Assembly (NCBI GenBank): GCA_003219695.1
Contig: QHQA01000056.1
Span: forward strand, 1 to 46,192
From: Verrucomicrobiota bacterium
GTDB taxonomy: Bacteria; Verrucomicrobiota; Verrucomicrobiia; Chthoniobacterales; UBA10450
Length of the DNA: 46,192 bases
Direction of reading: 5' to 3'
A program made the position numbers and the translations under genes. The notes under the pieces were generated by a model that saw only the letters and a program-made list of their open reading frames with translations, did not search any database and had not been told where the DNA came from. Below are positions 700-12,335 of the stretch, in pieces. Positions within the stretch are counted from its first letter, which is position 1. Each line of letters starts with the position of its first letter.

Positions 700-2754
700 T
701 TGATCGGCACCGTCTTGACCCCTCCGGCGACTCCAGACTATCCTCCGCTCTCGTCGCCCGGCGTTCATCAAGCAAATATGCGCAAGGAACTCACTATCCG
801 CGGCCTTATCATAGGCGTCGTCATCACGCTGGTGTTCACCGCGGCCAACGTGTACTTCGGTCTGAAGGCCGGACTCACTTTTTCCACGTCGATTCCGGCG
901 GCGGTAATTTCCATGGCGATCCTGCGCGGGTTCCGCGATGCGACCGTTCAGGAAAACAACATCGTGCAAACAGTCGCGTCAGCGGCGGGCACGCTGTCGT
1001 CGATCATTTTCGTGCTGCCGGGCCTGATCATGATTGGATGGTGGACTGGTTTTCCATTCTGGATCTCGTTCGCGATTTGCGGGTTGGGCGGGATTCTGGG
1101 TGTGATGTACTCGATCCCTCTACGCCGCGCGCTGGTGACGGGGTCCGACCTGCCGTATCCCGAAGGCGTGGCCTGCGCCGAGGTATTGAAGGTCGGCAGT
1201 GTCCGTGACGGCGCGCATGCATCGGATATCGAACACGGCCGGGCGGGTCTGCTTGCCGTCATTTGGGGATCGATTGTGTCCGCTGGATTCGCGGTGATCG
1301 TAGCGACGCAAATATTCGCTTCCGATGTGGCGCACACATTCCGGATCGGCAGGCGCGGCGCGGTGACCGGTTATGATTTCTCACTTTCCTTTGCGCTATT
1401 GGCCATTGGCCACTTGGTCGGCCTATCCGTGGGCATTGCCATGCTCATCGGCGCCGTGATCGGTTGGGGCTGGGGCGTGCCGCATTACTCAGCCCTGGCG
1501 GGCGACTTCACTACCGCCGCAGGCACGCTCGCGTTCAATACCTGGAGTCACAAAGTGCGTTTCGTTGGCGCCGGCGCGATTGGTGTTTCGGCAATCTGGA
1601 CATTGCTAAAACTCGTTAGGCCTGTTAGCAGCGGTCTCGCTGGAGCCATGGCCGCTTCGCGCGCGCGCAAAGCCGGCAAGGCCGACACGCTGCCAATCAC
1701 CGAGCGCGATATTCCCATCGGCATTGTCGGATTGGTCACGCTATTGTGTATGCTGCCAATTGCGTGGTTGCTCGGATATTTCGGCAATACGAGCGGTCTC
1801 GGTGCGCATGTAGCTACGCTCACCATCGGCGGCGTGGCCTACGTCGTGTTGATGAGCTTCTTTGTTTCCGCAGTCACAGGTTACATGGCCGGCTTGATCG
1901 GTTCCTCGAACAGTCCGCTTTCGGGAATTGGAATTTTGGTCGTGATTGGCGCGGCATTGCTCCTCGTGATTGGTGTAAAACCGTACGCCTCACCCGACGC
2001 GGGCAAGGCATTAATGGCGTTCGCACTTTTTACCACCGCGGTGATTTTCAACGTTGCCGCGATCGCGAACAATAATCTCCAGGACCTTAAAACCGGTCAG
2101 TTGGTCGATGCCACGCCGTGGAAACAGCAGGTCGCCCTCGTGATTGGCGTAGTCGCAGGCGCGTTTGTTATTCCGCCAGTGCTCGATCTGGTGAATCATG
2201 CTTACGGTTTCGTAGGCGCGCCGGGTGCCGAATCGCGTCCGAATCCGCTGCCTGCACCTCAGGCGGGGTTGATCTCGTCGCTGGCGCAAGGCGTCATCGC
2301 GGCTAATATCGATTGGAGTCTCATCCGGATCGGCGGATTGATCGGCGTCTGCATCATCCTGCTGGACGAGATCCTCGCGCGCACGACCCGGCACAGGCGT
2401 GTTCCTCCGCTCGCAGTAGGTCTTGGAATTTACCTGCCTACTCAAAGCACACTGATGATCGTGGTCGGAGCTGTCGCAGGCTGGTTCTTCGAGAGGCGCG
2501 CCGATCACACGGCCAGACCGCCAGCAGCGAAACAGCTTGGCGTTCTTCTCGCGTCGGGCTTAATCGTCGGCGAAAGCATTATCGGTGTGATTCTCTCCGC
2601 AATCGTCGTTTTTTCTGGCAAAGCGGCACCGCTCGCGCTCGTCGGTCGGGGATTTGAAACCGCAGGGATCATTATCGGTGGCAGCGTATTCGCAGTCACA
2701 GTGATCGTCCTCTATCGCTGGATTTTGCGCATGGCAACAGCAAGATCGACATGA
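700..2754 (+). CDS. OPT family oligopeptide transporter
   Basis: Integral membrane protein of 684 residues with about 14-16 hydrophobic segments. The N-terminal pattern ELTIRGLIIGVVITLVF then ANVYFGLKAG, and the segment SDLPYPEGVACAEVLK, are hallmarks of the bacterial OPT (YSL-like) family, which imports peptides or metal chelates by proton symport. Length fits the family (about 600-700). The TTG at 700 gives the longest form; an ATG at 778 (MRKELTIRG) starts nearer the conserved core and is a real alternative. The stop overlaps the ATG of the next gene by 4 nt (ATGA), so the two are probably translationally coupled. Substrate cannot be told. Confidence 0.88.
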   Translation: MIGTVLTPPATPDYPPLSSPGVHQANMRKELTIRGLIIGVVITLVFTAANVYFGLKAGLTFSTSIPAAVISMAILRGFRDATVQENNIVQTVASAAGTLSSIIFVLPGLIMIGWWTGFPFWISFAICGLGGILGVMYSIPLRRALVTGSDLPYPEGVACAEVLKVGSVRDGAHASDIEHGRAGLLAVIWGSIVSAGFAVIVATQIFASDVAHTFRIGRRGAVTGYDFSLSFALLAIGHLVGLSVGIAMLIGAVIGWGWGVPHYSALAGDFTTAAGTLAFNTWSHKVRFVGAGAIGVSAIWTLLKLVRPVSSGLAGAMAASRARKAGKADTLPITERDIPIGIVGLVTLLCMLPIAWLLGYFGNTSGLGAHVATLTIGGVAYVVLMSFFVSAVTGYMAGLIGSSNSPLSGIGILVVIGAALLLVIGVKPYASPDAGKALMAFALFTTAVIFNVAAIANNNLQDLKTGQLVDATPWKQQVALVIGVVAGAFVIPPVLDLVNHAYGFVGAPGAESRPNPLPAPQAGLISSLAQGVIAANIDWSLIRIGGLIGVCIILLDEILARTTRHRRVPPLAVGLGIYLPTQSTLMIVVGAVAGWFFERRADHTARPPAAKQLGVLLASGLIVGESIIGVILSAIVVFSGKAAPLALVGRGFETAGIIIGGSVFAVTVIVLYRWILRMATARST

Positions 2755-3560
2755 AACGAAAGTGGAATTGGCTGATCTTGATCGGGCTTCTGTTTGTCGT
2801 AGCTGGGTTCTCAATTGGCGGAGTTTTGCTCGTCGCAGGTCTCTTCCGAGCGTTTGGCAGACCCAGGCTTTATCACGGGAAAATTTTGGGTTCGATCTTC
2901 GTAGTTCTCAGCGCGCTCATGATTGCATTCTTTTGCTACGCTTTTTTCTACGGATTGCGCCAGGTGCCCGCTTCGACTGCAGCGCCGCATGTCGGAGAAA
3001 AAGCTCCGGAGTTCACGTTGCCCGATCAAAATGAAAAGCCAGTCACGTTGGCGGCTTTGCTCTCCGGCTCCAAAGCCGTCGTCCTGATTTTCTATCGCGG
3101 ATTTTGGTGAGCGCTCTGCAACTCCGAGTTGCGGAGTTTTCAGCAACGGCTTTCGGATTTTAACGCGCGTGGGATCCGCGTCATGGGCATCAGCGTTGAT
3201 CCGCCTGAGATTAACCGGCGCCAATCGCAAAAGCTCGGGTACGCTTTCCCGCTGCTCTCCGATCGCAAAGCGGAAGTCATTCGCCGTTATGATGTATTGC
3301 ACCCCGGCGCGGGACCGAAAGGAGCGGACATCGCGCGGCCGGCAGAGTTTCTGATTGATTCCAGCGGCGTGAATCGAGCCTGCCGGGCGATGATTGACGG
3401 CGCTCCCCCGAATCAATACGTTGAGCGCGCGTGCATCCGGAACTGGAACAACTGCTCGTTCTCCAAGATCGGCAACAAAAGATCAAACAGATTCAGACCG
3501 AGATCCAAACGCTGCCGTTGCAACGCAACCACCTCGAATCGCAGTTGGCCGGAAGCGTAG
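2751..3560 (+). CDS. Membrane-anchored peroxiredoxin-like protein with in-frame TGA at the active-site Cys; candidate selenoprotein
   Basis: The frame runs from ATG 2751 through a single TGA (3108-3110) and stays open to 3560. Residues 7-33 and 44-67 are two membrane helices. A redoxin domain follows (VGEKAPEFTLPD, VVLIFYRGFW), then TGA, then ALCNSELRSFQ and VMGISVDPPE, PAEFLIDSSG. In AhpC/TSA-like proteins FYRGxW is followed by CxxC; here the first Cys codon is TGA and the second is TGC, giving UALC with U at residue 120. UxxC redoxin selenoproteins are known in bacteria. A 10-bp hairpin begins 3 nt after the TGA. The 3' part overlaps the next gene by 130 nt and loses recognisable redoxin sequence after about 3370, so the true C-terminus is uncertain. 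Alternatives: nonsense pseudogene or sequencing error. ATGA overlap with the OPT gene. Confidence 0.7.
3114..3136 (+). promoter_or_regulatory. SECIS-like hairpin just after the TGA
   Basis: CTCTGCAACT pairs with AGTTGCGGAG (one T-G wobble) around a CCG triloop, so ten consecutive pairs start 3 nt after the TGA. Bacterial SECIS elements lie inside the coding region directly after the UGA, so position and stability fit. The loop is about 13 nt from the TGA, at or just below the usual spacing, and lacks the G often seen at the start of the loop. Function is inferred. Confidence 0.45.
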
Positions 3561-4132
3561 CGGGCGTCGAGGCCCTAAAACAAAAGGCGCGCCAGCTTGA
3601 GGTGGAGCGCAAGAAATTGGAGCTGGATGTAGGCACGCGCACCGAGACGATTTCGCGGCTCAAAACGCAGCAGTATCAGACCCGGAAAAACGATGAGTTT
3701 CAGGCGATCGGTCACGAGATTGATCGGTACGAAAATGAAATCCGCAAACTGGAAGATCAGGAGCTCGAACTCATGATCGAGGCTGACAAGTTCAAAGGTG
3801 AAATCGGCGCGGCGGAGGAAAAAGCGCGGGCAACAAAGGAATCGGTTTCGCGGCAGTTGAACGATCTCGAAGCGAAATCAAAAGCGCTGGAGAGTCAGCA
3901 GCAGGAGCTGGCAAAGGAGCGCGAAGCGCTCGCCAGCCAGATTGACGACGATTTGCTTAACCGGTTCGAACGTCTTTTCAACAGCAAAGGCGACGCGGCG
4001 GTCGTCGCAATCGAGCATGGCGTTTGCACCGGCTGCCACATGAAAGTGACAACTGCCACTGCGTCACGAGTCAGGGCGGGAAAAGAGATCGTGAGCTGCG
4101 AAAACTGCGGGCGGATTCTGTATGAAGGGTAG
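3431..4132 (+). CDS. CdsZ-like coiled-coil protein with C4 zinc ribbon
   Basis: 233 residues. The start is GTG 3431 because HPELEQLLVLQDRQ matches the family N-terminus. Residues ~10-190 form a long charged coiled coil (NDEFQAIGHEIDRYENEIRKLED-type heptads). The C-terminus carries the zinc ribbon CTGCHMKV then CENCGRILYEG, four cysteines in two CxxC pairs. The family (COG1579) includes CdsZ of Chlamydia, a zinc-ribbon protein involved in rRNA processing and growth control; a nucleic-acid-associated role is likely but not shown here. It overlaps the end of the redoxin frame. Its TAG stop is formed by the left end of a palindromic repeat. Confidence 0.85.
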   Translation: MHPELEQLLVLQDRQQKIKQIQTEIQTLPLQRNHLESQLAGSVAGVEALKQKARQLEVERKKLELDVGTRTETISRLKTQQYQTRKNDEFQAIGHEIDRYENEIRKLEDQELELMIEADKFKGEIGAAEEKARATKESVSRQLNDLEAKSKALESQQQELAKEREALASQIDDDLLNRFERLFNSKGDAAVVAIEHGVCTGCHMKVTTATASRVRAGKEIVSCENCGRILYEG

Positions 4133-6473: not shown

Positions 6474-7376
6474 CTAGCTCTGCCAGGCCGTTAAAAATGC
6501 ATCGACCAACTCTGGCAACTCCTCGCTGTAACCGCCTTCGAGAATCGCCGCGACTGGAATGTCGATCTTGCTTAACCACTGACCGAATTCCGCAAAATCA
6601 TCGCGCTCGAGAGTCAATTGCAGCAGCGGATCGCGCGCATAGGCGTCGAACCCTGCCGACACGAGAAGCAGATCGGGTTCGAACGCGATCAGTTTTTCCA
6701 GTGCTTGGTTCGCAACCTGCATATGGTCCCTGCGCGGCGTGAAAGGAACAATCTGGTAATTGTCAATGTTTGCGAAGGATTTCGCCCCCGTTCCGGGATA
6801 GGCAGGAAATTGATGAACCGACGCGAATCGAATTCTGTCATTATGCGCGACGATCGCCTCCGTTCCGTTGCCGTGATGCCCATCAAAATCCCAAATCGCG
6901 ACGCGTTCCGCTGTAGCCGGGGTCGATGCCCCCGGCAGGCCGGCATCACCGATGCCGGCTACAGCCAGCACATCAAGTGCAGCGATGGCAACGTTGCTAA
7001 AATAGCAGAAGCCCATCGCGCGTTCTCGCGTGGCATGATGTCCGGGCGGTCGCATCAGGCTGAAGGCCGGTTCGCCGCGTAACGCCGCGCGCGCCACTTC
7101 AAGCGCCGCGCTCGCCGATTGCCGCGCATGCATCTTAATGTTGGGATAAGATGGCGTGTCGAGATCAAAATCCTCATGTGCATTGACGATGCGTTTGATG
7201 TGCTGGCGCGAATGTGCGCGCAGCAATTCTTCATCCGTTGCAGCGGCGGGCTTGCGCCATTCCCAATCGGGATGCCGATCTTTTAAAAGGGGCGCGGTGC
7301 GAGCGATGCGCTCCGGTCGCTCCGGATGGCCGGGGCTTGAATATTCGAGACAGCTTGGGTCGTAAAAAATCGTCAT
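6474..7376 (-). CDS. Histone deacetylase family hydrolase (acetoin utilisation/HDAC-like)
   Basis: 300 residues from ATG 7376 (MTIFYDPSCLEYSSPGHPER); longer upstream frame overlaps the divergent glycosyltransferase promoter and is not conserved. Motifs of the Zn-dependent arginase/deacetylase fold: RPPGHHATRERAMGFCYFSN, WDFDGHHGNGTEAI (Asp and His metal ligands), HQFPAYPGTG, SAGFDAYARDPL (second metal Asp) and EGGYSEEL. Likely deacetylates an acetyl-lysine, acetylpolyamine or similar substrate in the cytosol. About 18 residues between NVAIAALD and ERVAIWDFDG (VAGIGDAGLPGASTPATA) come from an in-frame palindromic repeat, directly ahead of the metal-binding strand. Divergent from the GT2 gene with a 43-nt gap. 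Confidence 0.9.
   Translation of the reverse strand: MTIFYDPSCLEYSSPGHPERPERIARTAPLLKDRHPDWEWRKPAAATDEELLRAHSRQHIKRIVNAHEDFDLDTPSYPNIKMHARQSASAALEVARAALRGEPAFSLMRPPGHHATRERAMGFCYFSNVAIAALDVLAVAGIGDAGLPGASTPATAERVAIWDFDGHHGNGTEAIVAHNDRIRFASVHQFPAYPGTGAKSFANIDNYQIVPFTPRRDHMQVANQALEKLIAFEPDLLLVSAGFDAYARDPLLQLTLERDDFAEFGQWLSKIDIPVAAILEGGYSEELPELVDAFLTAWQS
6911..6964. repeat. GTAGCCGGGG...CCGGCTAC element inside the deacetylase gene
   Basis: Two back-to-back hairpins (CCGGGG...CCCCGG and GCCGGCATC...GATGCCGGC) with GTAGCCGG/CCGGCTAC ends. Read on the minus strand it codes for about 18 Gly/Ala-rich residues without a stop. Confidence 0.85.
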
Positions 7377-7419
7377 CAAGGTTGCAAGGCAGCGATCCAA
7401 CGCATATTCGACTACGACG

Positions 7420-8157
7420 ATGCTAAACGGCCAGAAAATTGTGGTGGTAATGCCGGCGTATAACGCCGCGCGTACGTTGCGCCAGACGTACGATGAAGTC
7501 ATGGCGCATGGAATTGTCGATCTGGTCATCGTGGTGGACGACGCTAGTCACGATGAGACGGTGGCAATCGCGCGCACTTTGCCAAATGTGCAAGTGGAAG
7601 TGCACCCGGAGAACCGCGGCTACGGGGCGAATCAAAAGACTTGCTACCGCCTGGCGCTCGCAGCAGGCGCCGACATCATCATGATGATTCATCCGGATTA
7701 CCAATACACGCCGCAGCTAATTCCGGCCATGGCGGCCCTGGTGGCGAGCGGTCTTTATCCCTGCGTGCTTGCTTCACGGATTCTTGGCGGCGGCGCGTTG
7801 CGCGGCGGCATGCCGTGGTGGAAATACGTTTCGAACCGATTCCTGACCTTCGTGGAGAACTTTCTTATCGGCGCGAAGCTCTCGGAATACCACACCGGCT
7901 ATCGCGCATTCTCTCGACAGTTGCTGGAGCGGCTTCCTTTGGAAGCGAACTCGAATGATTTTGTTTTCGACAATCAGATCCTCGCGCAAATCGTTGCTCT
8001 TGGCTGCGCGATTGGTGAGGTGACCTGCCCGGCTCGCTACATGCCCGAAGCGTCCTCAATCAATTTTCGCAGGAGCGTGCGCTATGGGCTGGGCTGCCTG
8101 GCAACAGCGTTACGTTTTCGGCTGGCGCGATGGGGCCTGGCGCAGCCGCTCGTTTAG
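7420..8157 (+). CDS. Glycosyltransferase family 2 (dolichol-phosphate mannosyltransferase-like)
   Basis: 245 residues starting MLNGQKIVVVMPAYNAARTL. The GT-A fold signatures are VIVVDDASHDET (nucleotide-sugar binding), ENRGYGANQKTCYRLAL and MIHPDYQYTPQLIP in the DxD region. KLSEYHTGYRAFSRQLLERL is the acceptor-side block of DPM1/undecaprenyl-phosphate sugar transferases. No membrane helix is evident, so a soluble or peripheral enzyme making a lipid-linked or surface sugar is likely. The donor and acceptor cannot be named. Starts 43 nt from the divergent deacetylase; the downstream lipoprotein gene is convergent. Confidence 0.88.
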   Translation: MLNGQKIVVVMPAYNAARTLRQTYDEVMAHGIVDLVIVVDDASHDETVAIARTLPNVQVEVHPENRGYGANQKTCYRLALAAGADIIMMIHPDYQYTPQLIPAMAALVASGLYPCVLASRILGGGALRGGMPWWKYVSNRFLTFVENFLIGAKLSEYHTGYRAFSRQLLERLPLEANSNDFVFDNQILAQIVALGCAIGEVTCPARYMPEASSINFRRSVRYGLGCLATALRFRLARWGLAQPLV

Positions 8158-8184
8158 ATGATCGATTGCCGAAACACTATCCGC

Positions 8185-8478
8185 TCAGTAGCCGCGCACG
8201 GCATAATGACCTGGGACCCAAACTCTGACGCCGTGTCGCCATCTCCAATGGCCCGGCCGCCAGACGTAATACACGCGCCCCGACCAGTACCCGGGACCAC
8301 GATAGTAAGGCCGATCGCCAACCGCAACGGTTACTGACCCAGGATAACCAGCATAGTATGGCCCCGGACCGTAGTAAGGCCCGTAACCCGGATATGCGGC
8401 GTAATAATCGGTGCATCCACCGACCCCAAGCGTGGCGCAAATTAAAGCCAACAGCAAAACGGAGCCTTTCATTTTCAT
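8185..8478 (-). CDS. Small Tyr/Gly/Trp-rich lipoprotein (YXWGXW-like)
   Basis: 97 residues. Residues 1-21 form a signal peptide ending in the lipobox LGVGGC, so Cys22 is probably lipidated. The mature part is rich in Tyr, Gly and Pro (YPGYGPYYGPGPYYAGYPG), then has Trp/aromatic repeats (WSGRVYYVWRPGHWRWRHG, WVPGHY). This resembles YXWGXW-type proteins, usually outer-membrane associated and of unknown function. It lies convergent to the glycosyltransferase and downstream of gdhA on the same strand. Confidence 0.75.
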   Translation of the reverse strand: MKMKGSVLLLALICATLGVGGCTDYYAAYPGYGPYYGPGPYYAGYPGSVTVAVGDRPYYRGPGYWSGRVYYVWRPGHWRWRHGVRVWVPGHYAVRGY

Positions 8479-8554
8479 ATACTGATATTCGAATTCGAGG
8501 GAGGATTCACGTGCCCGTGTTCAGTGGTACTGGGGATTTCTTCCAAGGCCGCAG

Positions 8555-10235
<1,681 letters not shown>

Positions 10236-10254
10236 GGGCTGAATTAAACAGACA

Positions 10255-10326
10255 TGCGCGATGCTGGGTTCGAACCAGCGACTTCTTGCGTGTGAAGCAA
10301 GCGCTCTACCACTGAGCTAATCGCGC
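10255..10326 (-). tRNA. tRNA-Val (CAC anticodon)
   Basis: The minus strand folds as acceptor GCGCGAT/ATCGCGC, D arm with AGCTCAGTGGTAGAGC, anticodon stem CTTGC/GCAAG with loop TTCACAC (anticodon CAC), and T arm GCTGG TTCGAAC CCAGC, with discriminator A. CCA is not encoded. Confidence 0.95.
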
Positions 10327-10415
10327 GCGTTTTCAGAAGCCGACAAAATAAAGAGCGCGCCGGGTAGCGCAAGCCTGGCGCTTGCCCGATGCCCCGCTTC
10401 ATTCTATTTACAACC

Positions 10416-10868
10416 ATGTCCGAACATAAAACCACTCTCACTTGGAAACGCGGCGATAAGCCGTTCGAGTATCAGAAATATTCACGCGATCACACATGGA
10501 AATTTGACGGCGGGCACGAAATGCAGGCATCGGCCGCTCCCGCGTATCTGGGCAATCCACAGTTGGTCGATCCGGAAGAGGCATTCGTGGCTTCGCTTTC
10601 CAGTTGTCACATGCTGACGTTCCTGGCCGTCGCCGCGAAGAAGAAGTTCGTGCTCGATGAATACGTCGATGACGCGGTCGGCGTTATGGAAAAAAACGCT
10701 GACGGCAGACTTGCCATTACTCGTGTGACATTGAGGCAGCAGCTCAAATTCTCGGGCGAGAAGCAACCCACGCCGCAAGAAATCGAGGAGATGAATCATG
10801 CCGCACACGAGCAGTGTTTCATCGCCAATTCGGTTAAGACCGAGATCAAAGTCGAAACGCAAACCTGA
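10416..10868 (+). CDS. OsmC family peroxide/redox protein
   Basis: 150 residues from ATG 10416 (MSEHKTTLTWKRGD); a longer frame starts 27 nt upstream but adds unmatched residues. OsmC/Ohr-type features: VDPEEAFVASLSSCHMLTFL with the first redox Cys, and HAAHEQCFIANSVKTEI with the second, typical of the YhfA/OsmC-like subgroup. Members reduce organic hydroperoxides with a two-cysteine mechanism in the cytosol. Followed by a palindromic repeat, then glyS. Confidence 0.9.
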   Translation: MSEHKTTLTWKRGDKPFEYQKYSRDHTWKFDGGHEMQASAAPAYLGNPQLVDPEEAFVASLSSCHMLTFLAVAAKKKFVLDEYVDDAVGVMEKNADGRLAITRVTLRQQLKFSGEKQPTPQEIEEMNHAAHEQCFIANSVKTEIKVETQT

Positions 10869-10878
10869 CAGTGTGCTT

Positions 10879-10938
10879 GTAGCGGCGGCTCTGTCAGCCG
10901 CCAAAGCAAGGAAGGGCGTTTGGCACAAACGCCTCTAC
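10879..10938. repeat. GTAGCGGCGG...GCCTCTAC repeat upstream of glyS
   Basis: Two hairpins: GGCGGCTCTGTCAGCCGCC and GGCGTTTGGCACAAACGCC, bounded by GTAG and CTAC. Same type as 13191-13215 and 602-664. Located in the osmC-glyS gap. Confidence 0.75.
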
Positions 10939-10973
10939 AACATTTCCTGACTCGTGTAACCTGCGAGCGAGAC

Positions 10974-12335
10974 ATGAGTACATCGTCCGACGCCCAACGA
11001 ATGGAAAAAATCGTCAGCCTGTGTAAGCGGCGCGGTTTTATTTTCCAATCCAGCGAAATCTACGGTGGGCTCAATGGCGCCTGGGATTACGGACCCCTGG
11101 GCGTCGAATTAAAGCGCAACCTGAAGAATTACTGGTGGCACGCCATGGTGCACGACCGCGACGACGTGGTCGGTATGGACGGCGCGATTCTGACGCATCC
11201 AACAGTTCTGAAGGCGTCCGGGCACGTCGAGGGCTTCTCCGATCCGATGGTCGATTGTCGCACTTGCAAGGCGCACCTGCGGATTGATCAGCTCATCGAG
11301 AAAAAGGGAACAAAGCAGTGTCCGAACTGCGGCGGCAAAGATTTGACCGAAGCGCGTCAGTTTAATCTGATGTTCGAAACGCATGTCGGCGCCGCCGCGG
11401 ACGAGAGTTCCATAGCATACCTGCGCCCCGAGACCGCCCAGTCGATCTTCGTTCAGTTCAAAAACATTCTCGAAGTGTCGCGCAAGAAGTTGCCGTTCGG
11501 TATTGCGCAGATCGGTAAAGCATTCCGAAACGAAATTAATCCGCGCAATTTCACGTTTCGCTCGCGCGAGTTCGAACAAATGGAGCTGGAATATTTTTGC
11601 CGGGCAGACCAGGGAATGGAATTGCTTGAATATTGGAAGGAAGAACGCCTGAAGTTTTATGAAAACATCGGCATTCCACGCAGCAAACTTCATGCGTTGA
11701 CAGTGCCCGACGAAGAGCGCGCGTTCTATTCGAAGGGGACCTACGACATCGAATACGATTTTCCGTTCGGACGACAGGAACTCGAAGGCGTCGCTTATCG
11801 GACCGATTACGATTTGTCGAGGCATCAGAAGGAGAGCGGAAAATCGCTGGAGTATTTTGATGAAGAAACCAAACAACGATTTATCCCGCACGTAGTCGAG
11901 CCGAGCGCGGGCGTTGATCGGACCGTCCTGGCGGTGATTTGCGAGGCGTATTCAGAAGACGAAGCGCCGGATGAAAAGGGCAAAATGGAAACACGTATCG
12001 TTCTCCGATTCCATCCGCGCGTGGCACCCATCAAATGTGCGATCTTCCCGCTGCTTAAGAACAAAGAGCCGCTTGTCGCGAAGGCAAAAGAGATCGTTGG
12101 GCTCCTGCGACCGCACATGACGGTTTTCTATGATGAGAGCGGGGCCATCGGCCGCCGCTATCGGCGTCAGGATGAAATCGGCACGCCCTTTGGAGTGACT
12201 GTTGATTTTGAAACGCTCGGGGAAAAGGATGCTGCGCTGCGCGATACAGTCACGTTGCGCGATCGGGATTCGATGAAGCAGGAGCGAGTCCCAATCGGCG
12301 ATTTGGTGAGAATTTTGACCTCGCGTATTCGTTGA
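10974..12335 (+). CDS. glyS: Glycine--tRNA ligase (dimeric class II)
   Basis: 453 residues from ATG 10974 (MSTSSDAQRMEKIVSLCKRR). Charges tRNA-Gly. Family signatures: GFIFQSSEIYGGLNGAWDYG, the zinc-binding pair CRTCKAHL...CPNCGG, RPETAQSIFVQFKN, motif 2 FRNEINPRNFTFRSREFEQM, and the C-terminal anticodon-binding domain beginning VAPIKCAIFPLLKNKE. Length fits bacterial alpha2 enzymes of the eukaryote-like type, not the glyQ/glyS alpha-beta type. A palindromic repeat lies just upstream. Confidence 0.96.
   Translation: MSTSSDAQRMEKIVSLCKRRGFIFQSSEIYGGLNGAWDYGPLGVELKRNLKNYWWHAMVHDRDDVVGMDGAILTHPTVLKASGHVEGFSDPMVDCRTCKAHLRIDQLIEKKGTKQCPNCGGKDLTEARQFNLMFETHVGAAADESSIAYLRPETAQSIFVQFKNILEVSRKKLPFGIAQIGKAFRNEINPRNFTFRSREFEQMELEYFCRADQGMELLEYWKEERLKFYENIGIPRSKLHALTVPDEERAFYSKGTYDIEYDFPFGRQELEGVAYRTDYDLSRHQKESGKSLEYFDEETKQRFIPHVVEPSAGVDRTVLAVICEAYSEDEAPDEKGKMETRIVLRFHPRVAPIKCAIFPLLKNKEPLVAKAKEIVGLLRPHMTVFYDESGAIGRRYRRQDEIGTPFGVTVDFETLGEKDAALRDTVTLRDRDSMKQERVPIGDLVRILTSRIR

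Follow-up and report, generated by a model that had tools for sequence, protein, structure and literature searches.

Table 1 of PMC13188914 places a Prx-like thiol:disulfide oxidoreductase (PF00578) with a UxxC or UxxU motif among the high-confidence predicted selenoproteins, so that, going by this entry, a UxxC Prx-like selenoprotein is a kind of protein already known. Here we describe a gene from the Verrucomicrobiota, which we refer to as selenoredoxin, that lies in a stretch of 46,192 nucleotides analysed as a whole (the window). Compared with the Prx-like thiol:disulfide oxidoreductase selenoproteins by their Table 1 description (example WP_010940744.1), selenoredoxin has PF00578, the UxxC motif, the Prx-like fold and a bacterial SECIS-like hairpin in common with them; it differs in a predicted three-helix N-terminal anchor, in the repeated erosion of the gene in the window's lineage, and in that no Cys orthologue was found in its family among the matches listed. 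The TxxU peroxiredoxin selenoproteins of the same table share PF00578 with selenoredoxin, but carry Sec at the opposite end of the motif. Two other groups of redox proteins are close. The Bcp/PrxQ/AhpE peroxiredoxins supply the top sequence and structure matches; unlike them, selenoredoxin has UxxC in place of TxxC, Pro in place of Arg, and an added membrane anchor. ResA/TlpA resemble it in the active site, the first Cys of CxxC corresponding to Sec and the Pro before a strand being aligned, whereas selenoredoxin fits peroxiredoxins better overall and has three predicted transmembrane (TM) helices and Sec.

No NCBIfam model, those for selenoproteins included, scored above its curated cut-off with any of the four members scanned, and the family therefore appears to be unnamed there. 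Among the matches listed from open-licence literature, searched by titles and the starts of abstracts, there was no paper on the family, and the word stem for Verrucomicrobia was not found in the available parts of the selenoproteome papers examined or of PMC12013277. We conclude that selenoredoxin belongs to the known UxxC Prx-like selenoproteins, as a new member specific to its lineage.

The in-frame TGA and the selenocysteine machinery

The selenoredoxin-homologous coding region, encoding a membrane-anchored protein of the Prx/Trx fold when TGA is read as Sec, occupies positions 2751..3377 of the forward strand. An earlier sequence-only reading of the window had described a single frame interrupted by one TGA with a redoxin motif around it, and the frame is as described: the ATG at 2751 opens it, the sole interruption is the TGA at 3108..3110 (forward strand), FYRGFW precedes this codon and ALCNSELRSF follows it. 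The end given in that reading, 3560, holds in the sense that the frame is open that far, but the alignment with relatives stops near 3371-3377, and the frame reading and comparison with relatives mark 3378..3560 (forward strand) as an out-of-frame tail entering the next gene. With TGA translated as a residue, the Pfam AhpC-TSA domain matches residues 81-207, a span that includes the TGA, with an E-value of 1.8e-30, indicating that the match to the readthrough frame is not due to chance; Redoxin matches too. The family profile aligns 2808-3377 with model positions 43-232 (E 8.8e-100).

Upstream lies a gene for an OPT-family transporter (700..2754, forward strand; Pfam OPT, E 1.1e-103), whose TGA stop overlaps the selenoredoxin ATG (ATGA). 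Downstream is a gene for a CT398-like coiled-coil/C4 zinc-ribbon protein (3431..4132, forward strand; Pfam Zn_ribbon_9 and CT398_CC), which also neighbours the selenoredoxin locus in relatives. These two neighbours give no clear functional clue for selenoredoxin, and PADLOC, run on one protein, returned no match.

We compared the readthrough protein with 83 genomes of the same family and found orthologues with TGA at 61-78% identity. When 213 genomes of the order were searched with a profile, 37 matches were obtained. The Sec site is covered by 33 of them, and at the nucleotide level its codon is TGA in all 33. The other four are fragments (in G009, G082, G050 and G053). The 33 genomes matched in this search all belong to the window's family. 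In a sample of 387 genomes of the phylum (E 1e-25), six were matched: three with the TGA form, all from the window's family, and three with no TGA inside the match. The sequence-only reading had proposed looking for TGA/Cys alternation at this site; none was found in close orthologues, since among the matches listed every one of at least 36% identity has TGA or misses the site, and those in the family without TGA are either fragments lacking the site or only 26-35% identical. Five of these weaker matches are in the window's own genome, comprising three TxxC peroxiredoxin-like proteins, a CxxC ResA-like protein and a fifth with no motif by pattern.

Homologues with Cys at the Sec position do exist farther away, as for known bacterial selenoproteins. 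A search seeded with a Cys-containing peptide gave 38 loci, with Cys in 35 and TGA in three (L056, L057 and L058), a ratio biased toward Cys because the seed contained Cys. One of the three, a planctomycete homologue (L058; Phycisphaerales, 43% identity), has TGA in FYRGHW-U-LTC, and selA is present in its genome. A plasmid collection yielded 189 records, of which none reached 60% identity or covered 80% of the query. In G029, a 28% match was considered as a further Sec protein and rejected: its TGA is the stop of an upstream frame that precedes an ordinary TxxC peroxiredoxin.

The window's genome is a draft of 3.14 Mb in 224 contigs (92.9% complete, 4.5% contamination). Contig C108 carries, adjoining one another within 5 kb, a tRNA-Sec gene (6630-6719; 71.2 bits against a gathering threshold of 47, with ARAGORN in agreement), selD (6845-7765), selA (7900-9264) and selB (9417-11291), each protein gene scoring above the curated cut-off. 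The selD gene has an in-frame TGA of its own, in a UxxK motif; UxxK is the motif given for Sec-SelD in Table 1 of PMC13188914. The search for sel genes that the sequence-only reading had suggested thus recovered selA, selB, selD and tRNA-Sec, and with these four genes in place the genome very probably decodes UGA as Sec, as that reading had supposed.

The selenoredoxin gene occurs in 33 of the 83 same-family genomes (in two of them as fragments). A selA match is found in 29 of the 33 genomes with the gene and in 24 of the 50 without (p 1.6e-4), and tRNA-Sec in 27 of 33 and 20 of 50, respectively (p 1.5e-4), the test in both cases ignoring shared ancestry. Despite carrying the gene, G003, G005, G006 and G048 have no selA match; these are drafts with listed completeness of 78-89%.

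TGA ends 11 of the 34 mechanical ORFs of at least 200 amino acids in the window, the upstream OPT gene included, and this bears on two other readings in opposite directions. It fits a TGA that simply ends translation, whether as a normal stop or through a nonsense mutation, in which case a 119-residue membrane protein would be made. We consider this very improbable, given that the protein sequence is conserved before as well as after the TGA, that every copy covering the site has TGA, that the Sec machinery is complete, and that the codons of the hairpin described below are frozen. The same usage as a terminator counts against TGA being read as tryptophan (code 4 or 25). A single in-frame TGA taken alone would be compatible with tryptophan, but in the Cys-seeded search the 35 homologous loci without TGA all have Cys rather than Trp, and tRNA-Sec and SelB are present; we regard the likelihood of this reading as negligible. 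Returning to Sec, we propose with high confidence that the selenoredoxin family is a selenoprotein family.

A SECIS-like hairpin downstream of the TGA

Immediately downstream of the TGA, at 3120..3138 of the forward strand, is a candidate bacterial SECIS-like hairpin, AACUCCG-AGUUG-CGGAGUU, with a 7-bp stem and a 5-nt loop that contains GU and starts 16 nt past the UGA. Its predicted energy is between -8.4 kcal/mol (19 nt) and -9.0 kcal/mol (24 nt, 3117-3140), with a z-score of -3.3 for 3117-3140. According to Fig. 2 of PMC13188914, a bSECIS has a loop of 3-9 nt, a stem of 4-16 bp, a G in the first two loop positions, a distance of 16-37 nt from the UGA and an energy of -7.5 kcal/mol or lower; the window hairpin lies within these printed limits, with G at loop position 2.

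The codons that form the hairpin are frozen at synonymous positions. Codons +4 to +9 past the TGA (AAC TCC GAG TTG CGG AGT) hardly vary across 30 orthologues: their entropy is 0-0.21, whereas 36 other conserved degenerate columns average 1.15. When codons +4 to +10, a stretch chosen after seeing the data, are compared with these columns, the Mann-Whitney p is 2.9e-4. Codon +10 varies and codon +11 does not. Of 33 copies, 30 have the hairpin without any change. Among the others, G080 has a U-G pair, G056 has the loop GGUUA, and a second copy of the gene in the window's genome, on contig C60, has a C-G to U-A exchange and has lost one end pair, its hairpin alone reaching -6.0 kcal/mol, which is weaker than the printed limit of -7.5. 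This C60 exchange is the single two-sided change in the alignment, and the covariation score was reached by 32 of 500 shuffles (15 distinct sequences chosen from 31 alignment rows). Covariation this sparse does not amount to proof.

A longer hairpin in the window RNA shares the same bases and is more stable (-18.8 kcal/mol, 39 nt). However, this competing structure is not conserved: it uses the freely varying codons +2 and +3, and many orthologues fold otherwise. In the planctomycete homologue no significant folding excess was detected (z -0.66). With TGA conserved across the family and a SECIS-like hairpin downstream of it, the earlier description of the gene as a UxxC redoxin with Sec is supported.

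Insertion of Sec through SelA, SelD and SelB is established biochemistry. By this route, SelA would form Sec-tRNA using selenophosphate from SelD, and SelB, bound at the hairpin at 3120-3138, would bring Sec to the UGA.

Predicted fold, membrane anchor and active site

We built an AlphaFold model from 16 orthologues that are 61-80% identical to the first. Mean pLDDT is 79; most of the domain exceeds 90, while the active-site block (141-150) stands at 71 and the anchor at 55-78. The modelled protein has helices at 7-26, 37-59 and 67-92, followed by a peroxiredoxin-like domain. TM prediction likewise gives three TM helices for intact relatives, and both lines of evidence agree with the suggestion in the sequence-only reading that this is a membrane protein. 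By the positive-inside rule, the redox domain would lie outside the inner membrane, on the periplasmic side.

The best structural matches to the model are Bcp4 and AhpE, and the best matches by sequence and structure together are 2cx3, 3hjp and 1xvw. Peroxiredoxins typically have a peroxidatic Cys in a T/S-x-x-C motif plus a catalytic Arg. In the profile alignment to 2cx3, Sec lies opposite Ser, the downstream Cys lies opposite the motif Cys, and Pro220, which is invariant in the family, lies opposite an Arg that we take to be the catalytic Arg of peroxiredoxins. In the alignments to solved structures, the T/S position of a typical peroxiredoxin is thus taken by Sec, and its Arg position by Pro. 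When the planctomycete sequence is aligned with ResA (4nmu), Sec falls on the first Cys of CxxC and the Pro on the ResA Pro, presumably the cis-Pro of thioredoxin folds.

The sequence-only reading had put Sec at the peroxidatic Cys of a peroxiredoxin-like protein. The alignments disagree: it is the downstream Cys that occupies the peroxidatic position, and Sec falls three residues before it, on the Thr/Ser. A true peroxiredoxin that has its peroxidatic residue in Sec would account for the top fold and sequence matches being Bcp/AhpE/PrxQ peroxiredoxins, and Sec at a CxxC position could still attack peroxides. We nonetheless find this reading doubtful, not only on account of the correspondences to Ser, Cys and Arg in 2cx3 but also because three peroxiredoxin-like matches from the window's own genome (L022, L024 and L026) have Thr where the selenoredoxin family has Sec. 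Taken together, the alignments and the model suggest an oxidoreductase that combines a peroxiredoxin fold with a thioredoxin-like U-x-x-C motif. A three-helix membrane anchor would come first, and the peroxiredoxin-like domain behind it would have an active site of the thioredoxin style. Nucleophilic attack would fall to Sec and resolution to the Cys three residues on, in which case the most likely reaction is disulfide exchange or reduction of small peroxides outside the membrane.

Deletions in the window copy and at the locus

Two deletions distinguish the window copy from its relatives. Relative to seven orthologues, an in-frame stretch of 69 bp is missing from it at a junction at 2812..2813 (forward strand; position accurate to a few bases either way). 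This deletion removes some of each of the first two TM helices along with the loop, and fuses two predicted TM segments into one, so that the topology should be inverted or spoiled. Compared with G068, the nearest orthologue, which is listed in the window's genus, it also lacks 74 bp out of frame at 3371..3372 (forward strand; again to within a few bases). With the second deletion the final strand is lost together with most of the final helix, and the original stop no longer lies in frame, which produces the tail that runs to 3560 and overlaps the next gene at 3431-4132. The copy on C60, 50% identical to the window copy, retains the TGA and goes out of frame near its C-terminus.

Damage recurs in the family. 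Of 33 copies covering the Sec site, nine are damaged: both copies in the window's genome (G000) and those in G004, G010, G050, G053, G056, G071 and G078. Three further copies, in G006 and G077 and the second copy in G063, end at a contig end or an N run and are not fully judgeable for damage. Scattered stops and frameshifts in orthologues, named in the sequence-only reading as grounds for abandoning the Sec interpretation, are therefore partly present; they concern whether single copies work, and do not touch the Sec coding of the family. By comparison, no internal stop was seen in the zinc-ribbon neighbour among the matches listed in 76 genomes, a few of which are partial. The difference in damage between selenoredoxin and this neighbour has a p of 9.0e-6 with zero neighbour frameshifts, and of 9.5e-4 if three are allowed, a number assumed rather than counted.

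We also counted substitutions against G068. The window branch has 30 synonymous and 32 non-synonymous changes and the G068 branch 17 and 15, with 15 unpolarised. The ratios are similar, and faster protein change on the window branch is not seen in these counts, so that the case for decay rests on the deletions; either the decay is recent or the deletions are assembly errors. In the latter event the window copy would be truly intact and a normal selenoredoxin would be made. The assembly is a draft of 224 contigs, the redox core and flanking genes align cleanly either side of the junctions, and there is no clear relaxation on the window branch, all of which fits such errors. Set against this are two separate clean deletions within one gene, and the recurrence of damage in relatives next to a neighbour free of internal stops, which makes a general assembly error rate a poor explanation. 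We judge assembly error unlikely, and the window copy itself probably non-functional or nearly so, as read from its two deletions.

For 14 genomes lacking the gene we fetched the neighbourhood of the locus. In eight (G051, G054, G057, G058, G061, G066, G069 and G075), a close OPT homologue adjoins the zinc-ribbon gene. Between the two, G058 has a remnant consisting of residues 1-49 and 220-260 only, and G051 and G057 have remnants of about the last 70 nt. These sequence remnants show loss of the gene by deletion in G051, G057 and G058, and the same is likely for G054, G061, G066, G069 and G075. A distant OPT (28-31%) occupies the locus instead in G046, G047 and G081, no OPT match was found within the stretch fetched for G023 and G036, and the stretch for G059 comprises 87 bases only.

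We consider it highly likely, from sequence comparison, that the window contains the locus of a Verrucomicrobiota UxxC selenoprotein into which Sec is inserted by means of SelA, SelB, SelD and the hairpin, and that the window copy is decaying through its two deletions. In this copy the Sec codon and the hairpin are still present, as is most of the redox domain, with 69 bp and 74 bp gone, and it may represent one stage in a repeated decay of the gene at this locus. We lean, by a narrow measure, toward a broader picture in which one family of Verrucomicrobiota keeps selenoredoxin as a Sec-only protein and repeated deletions at a fixed locus remove the gene, the Sec machinery being retained.

In draft genomes, conservation of the Sec codon is no proof that a given copy is functional. 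With this analysis the Verrucomicrobiota gain a selenoprotein family that is well supported and apparently without a name, and whose members would be shortened by annotation in which TGA has no meaning other than stop. The locus, with its step-by-step deletions in genomes that mostly keep selA, allows a look at selenoprotein loss by a path other than via cysteine. If this picture is true, the locus is a natural experiment in which selenoproteins die without replacement of Sec by Cys.

Probable selenoprotein genes in the genome of the window

The genome from which the window derives (G000) carries a second selenoredoxin gene on the minus strand of contig C60 (917-1594), with the TGA set in FYRGYW-U-GNC. 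This copy shows 50% identity and lies in the same genome as the window copy; it, too, is out of frame close to the C-terminus. The selD gene on contig C108 (6845-7765) has its own in-frame TGA within a UxxK motif, and the selenophosphate synthetase of this genome is therefore probably a selenoprotein too.

The locus and tRNA-Sec genes in relatives

Between the OPT transporter and zinc-ribbon genes of a relative, G058, we found a selenoredoxin remnant (2246-2516 of locus L104) from which the redox core has been deleted. Another relative, G048, has its selenoredoxin gene on contig C27 and the zinc-ribbon gene on a separate contig, C153, where a distant OPT gene adjoins the latter.

Two genomes without a selA match carry a tRNA-Sec gene: G037 (92% complete; contig C340, 26405-26500) and G049 (75% complete; contig C61, 5101-5196). 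Contig C160 of G075 holds an adjoining pair of tRNA-Sec genes with equal scores (8152-8241 and 8417-8506).

A homologue in Phycisphaerales

A selenoredoxin homologue in Phycisphaerales (JADZBE010000023.1, 3193) has a TGA at the same site, and its genome bears selA. The predicted selenoredoxin family extends beyond Verrucomicrobiota.
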